NCBI GenBank assembly: GCA_016286365.1
Contig: JAEESN010000001.1
Location: 186,001-250,000 of the forward strand
Source of the DNA: Treponema sp.
Lineage (GTDB): Bacteria > Spirochaetota > Spirochaetia > Treponematales > Treponemataceae
Length of the DNA: 64,000 bases
Direction of reading: 5' to 3'
Numbering within the stretch: the first letter of the stretch is position 1; the number at the start of each line of letters is the position of its first letter. The notes below the pieces were generated by a model, which was not told the origin of the DNA, did not search any database, and saw nothing but the letters and a program-made list of their open reading frames with translations. Made by a program: the position numbers and the translations under genes. Below are positions 47,686 to 49,202 of the stretch, piece by piece.

Positions 47686-48963
47686 TTAGATTGCATTAAA
47701 TCCGTTTTCTAAGTCTGCAATAATGTCGTCTACGTGTTCAGTACCGATTGAAAGTCGGATTGTATTCTGTGCAATTCCCTGATCTTTAAGTTCTTCATCG
47801 TTGAGCTGGCTGTGTGTTGTAGAAGCCGGATGAATTACAAGTGATTTTACATCTGCAACGTTTGCAAGAAGACTAAAGATTTTAAGATTATCGATAAACT
47901 TCCATGCTTCGTCGCGTCCACCTTTGATGTTGAAAGTAAAGATTGAAGCTCCACCGTTAGGGAAGTATTTCTGATAGAGGGCATGGTCCGGATGATCAGC
48001 TAAAGAAGGATGATTAACCTTTTCTACTTTTGGATGCTTACTCAAGAATTCTACAACCTTCTTTGTGTTTTCTGCATGGCGTTCAAGACGAAGGCTTAAA
48101 GTTTCTACACCCTGGAGTAAAAGGAATGCGTTGAATGGGCTGATTGTAGCACCTGTATCGCGAAGCAATATTGCGCGGATGTAAGTAACAAATGCAGCAG
48201 GACCAACAGCGTCGTAGAATGAAACACCGTGATAACTTGGGTTAGGAGCAGCAATCTGAGGATAGTTTCCGCTTGCTTTCCAGTTGAATTTTCCGCTTTC
48301 TACAATAATTCCACCAAGAGTTGTTCCGTGACCCCCAAGGAATTTTGTTGCAGAATGAACTACAATGTCTGCCCCGTGTTCAAACGGACGGATAAGATAT
48401 GGAGTTCCGAATGTGTTATCTACAACTACAGGAAGACCATGTTTGTGAGCAATTTCTGCAATAGCATCAATATCCGGAATATCTGAGTTTGGATTTCCTA
48501 AAGTTTCAAGATAGATTGCACGAGTGTTAGCTTTGATTGCGCCTTCAACTTCTTTTAAGTTGTGTGCATCAACGAATGTTGTTTCAATTCCATACTGTGG
48601 AAGAGTGTGGGCCAGGAGGTTATAAGAACCACCATAAATTGTTTTCTGTGATACAATGTGACCACCGTTAGCAGCCAGAGCTTCGATTGTATAAGCAATT
48701 GCTGCTGCACCAGATGCAAGTGCCAAAGCTGCAGAACCACCTTCGAGTGCTGCAACTCTTTTTTCTAATACGTCCTGAGTAGAATTTGTAAGACGTCCGT
48801 AGATGTTTCCTGCATCTGCAAGACCAAATCTGTCTGCAGCGTGTTTTGAATTGTGGAATACATAAGAAGTAGTCTGATAGATTGGAACTGCGCGTGCATC
48901 TGTTGCTGGATCTGCACTTTCCTGACCAACGTGTAACTGTAATGTTTCGAATTTATATGACAT
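47686..48963 (-). CDS. metY: O-acetylhomoserine sulfhydrylase
   Basis: A 425-residue PLP enzyme of the Cys/Met gamma family. PIYQTTSYVF, the PLP lysine K207 in VVHSATKFLGGHGTTLGG, and FGTPYLIRPFEHGADI are family marks. The ~425-residue length and the SLRLERHAENT segment fit MetY (sulfide plus O-acetylhomoserine to homocysteine) rather than MetB or MetC. It sits behind a leader holding a consensus promoter, a Cys-Cys leader peptide and an intrinsic terminator, so transcription is probably attenuated by sulfur-amino-acid supply. Confidence 0.93.
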   Translation of the reverse strand: MSYKFETLQLHVGQESADPATDARAVPIYQTTSYVFHNSKHAADRFGLADAGNIYGRLTNSTQDVLEKRVAALEGGSAALALASGAAAIAYTIEALAANGGHIVSQKTIYGGSYNLLAHTLPQYGIETTFVDAHNLKEVEGAIKANTRAIYLETLGNPNSDIPDIDAIAEIAHKHGLPVVVDNTFGTPYLIRPFEHGADIVVHSATKFLGGHGTTLGGIIVESGKFNWKASGNYPQIAAPNPSYHGVSFYDAVGPAAFVTYIRAILLRDTGATISPFNAFLLLQGVETLSLRLERHAENTKKVVEFLSKHPKVEKVNHPSLADHPDHALYQKYFPNGGASIFTFNIKGGRDEAWKFIDNLKIFSLLANVADVKSLVIHPASTTHSQLNDEELKDQGIAQNTIRLSIGTEHVDDIIADLENGFNAI

Positions 48964-48981
48964 ATGATACCTCTATTAAAT

Positions 48982-49013
48982 AAAAAAAAATTTGATTGGG
49001 GAAAGCCTTCCCC
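48982..49013 (-). terminator. Attenuator-like terminator in the metY leader
   Basis: On the minus strand GGGGAA pairs with TTCCCC over a four-base loop (48998-49013). AATCAAA then nine Ts follow. It lies after the leader peptide stop and before the metY start codon, so most transcripts could end here unless antiterminated. Confidence 0.7.
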
Positions 49014-49041
49014 TGGTGTTAAAATGTAAATGATTTGTTTA

Positions 49042-49116
49042 TTAGAAAAGACAACAGGAACGCATGACTCCGTTACGGAAATTTTCTCTTACGAGCTTTT
49101 CAAAATAAAATTTCAT
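49042..49116 (-). CDS. Cysteine-containing leader peptide of metY
   Basis: A 24-residue frame with a perfect AGGAGGC ribosome site four bases before ATG. It ends R-S-C-C-L-F-stop, with tandem TGT cysteine codons two codons before the end. It lies between a consensus promoter and the intrinsic terminator upstream of metY. Tandem codons for the pathway's product or relative are the mark of attenuation leader peptides. Too short for standard gene finders. Confidence 0.75.
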   Translation of the reverse strand: MKFYFEKLVRENFRNGVMRSCCLF

Positions 49117-49143
49117 ATATGCCTCCTGTCTGTTTAGATTCCT

Positions 49144-49202
49144 ACCTATTTAGTAGGTTTATATATTATTTATACTATGTTTTACCTACTATGTCAATAG
49201 GT
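49144..49202 (-). promoter_or_regulatory. metY promoter flanked by two palindromes
   Basis: On the minus strand TTGACA (49192-49197) and TATAAA (49169-49174) are separated by exactly 17 bases. ACCTATTTAGTAGGT (49144-49158) falls just after the expected start site. ACCTACTATGTCAATAGGT (49184-49202) covers the -35. Both have ACCTA/TAGGT arms and share ACCTACTA in opposite orientation. This is a likely repressor operator pair; the regulator is unknown. Confidence 0.7.

Follow-up and report, generated by a model that had tools for sequence, protein, structure and literature searches.

Conserved Cys-codon leader peptides and their probable role in cysteine-responsive control of sulfur genes in Treponemataceae

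In ErmC-type attenuators, TnaC, and ErmCL, a conserved nascent chain is followed by a structural switch that frees a Shine-Dalgarno (SD) sequence. In mycobacteria, a stalled ribosome reportedly relieves sequestration of the ribosome-binding site of a gene. We know of no combination of CymR with a leader peptide in the Firmicutes. Polycysteine leaderless short open reading frames (ORFs) of mycobacteria (Canestrari et al. 2020, Mol Microbiol 114:93) are cited in PMC9094748 and PMC9031893. For Actinobacteria, Seliverstov et al. (2005, PMC1262725) predict cys leader peptides that contain Cys runs and lack terminators, and describe a LEU element whose run of regulatory codons base pairs with the leuA SD. 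Leader-peptide control of sulfur genes has been described for actinobacteria; our literature search found nothing comparable, and no description of such a leader, in spirochaetes, in agreement with the initial annotation of the DNA analyzed here, which knew of none. Here, we describe a leader peptide upstream of metY in a 64,000-nucleotide stretch of Treponema sp. DNA (the window). The locus is probably an undescribed switch that tunes the expression of sulfur genes to the supply of cysteine.

A leader peptide family ahead of sulfur genes

The metY gene in the window encodes O-acetylhomoserine sulfhydrylase (631 bits against TIGR01326, above the cutoff of 495). A minus-strand ORF of 24 residues lies 78 nt 5' of this gene, with AGGAGG 5 nt ahead of its ATG (Table 1). 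The initial annotation had read this ORF as a Cys-Cys leader peptide of metY with a perfect ribosome site. A DNA search of the source genome revealed a paralog, MKIFFQKLVRENFRNGVMCLCCLSD, in a 70% identical stretch before a gene for a UroD-like methyltransferase. A profile built from these two sequences gave strong matches in about 110 of the 274 genomes of the family. A scan with one genome per species (84,980 species) yielded 124 relatives; the best 80 of these 124 were all Treponema or spirochaete records, and T. bryantii, T. porcinum, T. berlinense, and T. saccharophilum were among the matches listed. No two of the 124 leaders, which come from about 110 genomes of Treponemataceae, are identical, yet they have in common a core, FEKLVRENFRNG-x-M, with a Cys-rich tail behind it. 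A paralog and 124 conserved relatives are far beyond chance: the peptide is real, and its reading as a Cys-codon leader of a sulfur gene, conserved in Treponema, is supported. Sampling across the phylum yielded a single strong match beyond the family, in genome G309, which is assigned to another family; the leader there precedes metY and adjoins an Rrf2 gene, and it may reflect horizontal transfer or a contaminating contig.

Table 1. Coordinates of the features of the leader and metY locus in the window
Feature	Position	Strand	Basis or remark
Operator 1, CCTA-N9-TAGG, overlapping the -35 box (TTGACA, 49192-49197)	49185-49201	-	Genome holds just three perfect matches, this one included
-10 box TATAAA, 17 nt from TTGACA	49169-49174	-	Read from sequence; unlisted by promoter scan, last base A
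Operator 2, CCTA-N9-TAGG, near the inferred transcription start, between promoter and leader	49141-49157	-	Sequence reading
Leader SD, AGGAGG	49122-49127	-	Predicted to base pair with codons 18-23 of its own leader; probability from window folding and family tests
Leader ORF, MKFYFEKLVRENFRNGVMRSCCLF and stop	49042-49116	-	ORF reading and family conservation
Codons 5-18, near-invariant core FEKLVRENFRNGVM	49063-49104	-	Codon table, n = 124; pN/pS 0.10-0.115, pS 0.78
Codons 19-22 (CGT TCC TGT TGT), Cys codons predicted to double as anti-SD segment	49051-49062	-	Pairing tests
Hairpin GGGGAAGGCTTTCCCC (GGGGAA-GGCT-TTCCCC), end of a dispersed repeat; terminator of the initial annotation	48998-49013	-	Sequence, terminator scan, repeat search
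metY SD, AGAGG	48970-48974	-	Read from sequence; weak tail pairing in the window
metY, O-acetylhomoserine sulfhydrylase	47686-48963	-	TIGR01326, 5e-190

About two thirds of the 124 leaders precede metY. The others are followed by genes for a UroD-like methyltransferase (11), MetQ/NlpA (9), a LanC-like protein (5), MetN (4), cysK (3), and a few others. Most of the leaders not followed by metY thus head other sulfur genes, and the members are short ORFs, mostly with Cys codons near the stop, placed ahead of metY, cysK, and the genes for MetQ and MetN. The position of the leader before the LanC-like gene (L022, L050, L083, L088, and L089) suggests a sulfur-related function for the LanC-like protein. 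Leaders were also found ahead of genes for PaaK-like ligases, a NifB-like radical SAM protein, and a family with a GST-like C-terminal domain (L113, L118, L098, L013, and L057), which are candidate sulfur metabolism genes.

The peptide had no match in NCBIfam or Pfam, was unannotated in the one T. saccharophilum plasmid record that we inspected, and was absent, as the string FEKLVREN, from the literature searched. A phage or plasmid origin was considered and set aside; there was no phage match, and the only plasmid was that of Treponema saccharophilum. The known riboswitches (SAM, T-box, and cobalamin) were likewise rejected, as the Rfam matches in the window were limited to RNase P and two tRNAs.

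The initial annotation had singled out the C terminus of the peptide as the part to examine for conservation and had named a lack of conservation as evidence against its proposal. We found the peptide to be strongly conserved among its relatives, with the body FEKLVRENFRNG-x-M, not the C terminus alone, as the conserved part. Among the 124 distinct leaders, F5, R10, N12, R14, G16, and M18 are invariant, and E6, L8, V9, and F13 are nearly so, even though all six Leu, all four Val, and all six Arg codons are used. The core has a pS of 0.78 and a pN of 0.09 (ratio, 0.10 to 0.115), compared with a pN/pS of 0.163 for the first 120 codons of metY and 0.46 for the tail. Since the ratio in the core is about 0.11 and its synonymous sites are near saturation, selection acts on the peptide.

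Cys codons occur in 116 of the 124 tails (94%), with at least two in 97 of them and between zero and five per leader. Cys makes up 35% of tail residues versus 0.33% in the downstream proteins, and the enrichment is specific to the reading frame: TGY triplets account for 41% of those in the leader frame and for 1.5 to 2.2% in the other frames. Eight tails contain no Cys, and in two leaders (L123 and L131) the ORF ends directly after M18. Where the Cys codons have been lost, L123 included, the core and the position of the anti-SD segment described below are retained. The core always ends at codon 18 and the anti-SD occupies codons 19 to 21, so that the distance between them is fixed.

Promoters and paired operators

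Upstream of the leader, a promoter of the form TTGACA-N17-TATAAA is overlapped by CCTATTGACATAGTAGG. An operator at this position (site 1) precedes 109 of the 124 leaders, and 87 of these also have site 2; the spacer is always 9 nt, and the reversed control gave no matches. GGAGG-type SD sequences are present before most leaders, and operator 1 starts a median of 87 nt upstream of the ORF, showing that these leaders are not leaderless. In the source genome, there are exactly three perfect operator matches, at metY, the UroD-like gene, and cysK (C31:308255 and C31:315125 of genome G000, in addition to the site in the window). The cysK gene has the third copy of the promoter, without a leader, and is followed by an Rrf2 gene whose product is nearest to CymR (NF047409, E value of 2e-31, below the cutoff). 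The leader likewise has an Rrf2 gene next to it in L140, the locus of G309, and on the T. saccharophilum plasmid. From this arrangement we infer that the Rrf2 protein may bind the CCTA-N9-TAGG sites. Two metY orthologs, L263 (whose metY is 95% identical) and L264, keep the operator pair and are missing the leader ORF. Therefore, the leader is a module separable from the operators.

Predicted pairing of the tail with two Shine-Dalgarno sequences

Folding predictions indicated that the Cys codons double as an anti-SD segment complementary to the leader's own SD. Across the family, the predicted pairing of the leader SD peaks sharply at nt +2 to +6 of codon 19, with a mean probability of about 0.55. 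In the window, the mean probability that the SD is paired with codons 18 to 23 is 0.90 over an 8-nt stretch, and the leader SD is the only partner for which strong pairing is predicted there. When tails were swapped among leaders, SD pairing over codons 17 to 23 dropped from 0.57 to 0.44 (P = 1e-4). The duplex of leader SD and tail has an energy of -13.4 kcal/mol, compared with -11.7 with swapped tails (z = -8), a test that keeps some relatedness (own tails, -13.4; near relatives, -12.4; far relatives, -11.4 kcal/mol), and with -9.7 after synonymous resampling (z = -14.7). Most other segments of the leader reach only -4 to -6 kcal/mol against the same SD.

Comparative evidence also supports this pairing. 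When the two arms were aligned without gaps, 76.8% of cells were paired versus 40 to 60% when the arms were slid, and none of 500 shuffles reached the covariation score of the two arms. At SD+2/codon 19, an A-U pair changes to G-C in 14 sequences, and codon 19 alternates between Cys and Arg. Codon choice is biased near the anti-SD: Leu20 is encoded by CTC in 48 of 54 cases versus 15 of 123 for Leu8, and Val17 by GTC in 61 of 64 versus 40 of 121 for Val9.

The metY SD is a second predicted target of the tail, and complementarity to it peaks sharply at codons 16 to 27. The duplex of tail and metY SD is predicted at -8.8 kcal/mol, versus -7.7 for swapped tails (z = -4.6) and -7.3 after synonymous resampling (z = -6.6); for genes other than metY, the swap test was weak (z = -1.6). 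With the leader SD occupied, the metY SD was predicted to pair chiefly with the tail in 31 of 65 leaders, to be unpaired in 15, and to pair within the gap in 10. Individual leaders provide examples: L108, L109, L111, and L129 carry GCTCCTGTT in the tail and (A)ACAGGAGC at metY, L072 has poly-TGT opposite GGAACAACAAC, and the Cys-less L123 has CTTCTTG directly 3' of its stop, opposite CAAGGAG. Opening of the metY SD when codon 21 is occupied (0.156) was not significantly larger than with swapped tails (0.113; P = 0.35). In the window, pairing between the tail and the metY SD is weak (-5.0 kcal/mol; probability, 0.01 to 0.04), and in the near neighbors L005 and L006 its probability is 0.73 to 0.77. 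Because the metY SD pairs little with the tail in the window, the half of our model that concerns the metY SD rests on the relatives.

The gap between leader and gene is variable and contains other elements. The sequence AGGGGAAGGCTTTCCCCT occurs at about 11 places in the source genome, with no control matches, and is the end of a dispersed repeat. Copies that end in GAGGGGAAGGCTTTCCCCTCC, in many cases preceded by GAAGGGGTAG at a distance of about 40 nt, are found on contigs C6, C19, C28, C29, C31, and C33 of this genome, and the same repeat lies in the leader gaps of several relatives (L007, L010, L012, and L023). Separately, a variable hairpin directly after the leader stop (GGCTGAAAGACCTTTAGCC, GCCGGAAAGATCTTTCGGC, and similar) was seen in 42 of 120 gaps, compared with 9 to 20 in control windows, for example in L021, L033, L041, L027, L031, and L083.

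A model for cysteine-responsive control and its alternatives

We propose that this leader-peptide family heads a sulfur regulon of the Treponemataceae and confers cysteine-responsive translational attenuation, a reading of the pairing predictions to which we assign a probability of roughly 0.55. Transcription would start at the promoter covered by the CymR-like Rrf2 operator pair, and the leader ORF, with its strong SD, would be translated first, as the codon-level selection suggests. Codons 19 to 22, which are usually Cys, would form an anti-SD with two targets indicated by prediction and covariation: the leader SD and, for about half of the metY leaders, the SD of the gene. When cysteine is plentiful, ribosomes would clear the Cys codons and free the anti-SD, closing the start sites, and little enzyme would be made. 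When Cys-tRNA is scarce, a pause at codons 19 to 22 would keep the anti-SD open and the sulfur gene would be translated; a ribosome slowed at codons 18 to 22 would mask the anti-SD and leave the start site of the gene free. The last core residue is in every case immediately followed by the anti-SD, and the core most likely works from within the exit tunnel, defining or reinforcing the pause at exactly this site. That one segment can pair with two SD sequences is not enough to establish the sign of control; we base the sign, on under cysteine limitation, on the functions of the genes together with the structure. In L109, L111, and L129, the leader ORF passes the metY ribosome-binding site and ends inside metY. 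The proposed sign also fits these three loci, as ribosomes that move past the Cys codons would cross the metY start.

Alternatively, the core might itself respond to a small molecule, such as cysteine, methionine, SAM, or sulfide, by stalling translation at codon 18/19, in the manner of TnaC and ErmCL, with the Cys codons being secondary or merely anti-SD sequence. The far tighter constraint on the core than on the tail points this way, as do the leaders in which the core and the anti-SD position outlast the Cys codons and the two that stop right after M18. However, if Cys codons were irrelevant, their frame-specific presence in 94% of the tails would be unexplained, and we consider this account rather unlikely. 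More tentatively than our main model, FEKLVRENFRNG-x-M may be an arrest peptide that senses a sulfur metabolite and parks the ribosome on the Cys-codon anti-SD. If so, one gene of 24 codons would have two inputs, a metabolite sensed by the nascent chain and Cys-tRNA charging sensed by the codons, and would switch both the leader SD and the SD of the sulfur gene. The strong conservation at the peptide level, and the LanC-like protein encoded after five copies, would also suit a peptide that acts in trans, as a small metal- or thiol-binding protein, a partner of a regulator, or a RiPP precursor. Yet genomes carry several copies, each ahead of a different gene, the number of Cys residues varies from none to five, codons 19 to 21 covary with the leader SD, and most copies have no modification enzyme directly downstream; action in trans is accordingly improbable. 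We rejected a RiPP precursor with adjacent modification or export genes in particular, as the first genes downstream encode mostly sulfur enzymes and transporters, and a LanC-like gene follows only five copies.

The initial annotation had placed an intrinsic terminator between the leader and metY and had suggested that the position of the ribosome might change the folding, a reading that amounts to classical transcription attenuation. A hairpin and a U-run are indeed present in the window, and terminator-like sites occur in 11 of 68 relatives versus 4.4 expected. Nevertheless, the U-run (48982-48990) starts 7 nt after the hairpin stem, the terminator scan did not flag the hairpin, which is the end of the dispersed repeat, and some leader-to-gene gaps are as short as 21 to 47 nt, leaving no room for a terminator. 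The proposed 7-of-8 match between CCTGTTGT and ACACCAGG exists and has a P value of 0.0125 for that 8-mer, but of 0.35 once every 8-mer in the 3' half of the ORF is allowed, and the relatives do not conserve it. With neither a family-wide terminator nor a conserved antiterminator pairing, the proposed terminator/antiterminator switch did not hold up. We therefore rejected, as a feature of the family, a trp-type attenuator, which combines an intrinsic terminator with an alternative antiterminator, and regard transcription attenuation in general as quite improbable. Rho-dependent or mRNA decay control, as in tna, would require no specific structure, as leader translation itself would shield the RNA. 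The variable gaps without terminators agree with such control, and passages of one study raise a similar idea for mycobacterial cys leaders (PMC1262725). However, the bias of C over G is absent after the stop codon (C, 0.186; G, 0.195), and the covariation of the anti-SD would be left unexplained, making this reading very unlikely. Translational attenuation in response to cysteine remains the reading that we prefer.

Comparison with described leaders and regulons

The Treponema leaders resemble the cys leaders of Actinobacteria in having Cys runs without a family-wide terminator and, in the relatives where the tail is predicted to pair with the metY SD, resemble the LEU element, as passages of PMC1262725 present these systems. 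They differ in phylum and in the genes controlled, and those passages describe no counterpart of the Treponema core.

As judged from sequence, the family shares with the mycobacterial polycysteine leaders a run of Cys codons near the stop, an association with several Cys and sulfur operons, and the lack of a conserved terminator; under our model it would also operate in the same way. Unlike the mycobacterial kind, the Treponema leader has a 5' untranslated region, a strong SD, and a near-invariant core of 14 residues; its anti-SD is predicted to pair also with the leader's own SD, its promoter carries an Rrf2-type operator, and it belongs to a different phylum. A conserved nascent chain and an SD switch, here a predicted one, are features in common with ErmC-type attenuators, TnaC, and ErmCL. 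In contrast to those systems, there is no inducing drug, and Cys codons lie at the presumed pause site, where stalling would occur. The Treponema leaders could serve as a comparative test case for whether the conserved bodies of amino acid leader peptides act as arrest sequences. As in CymR/Rrf2 sulfur regulons, an Rrf2 gene lies near cysK, and paired operators are found on sulfur promoters. At these same promoters, a family of more than 100 members would stack three layers of control: an operator of the Rrf2 type, sensing through codons, and a nascent chain that hardly varies.
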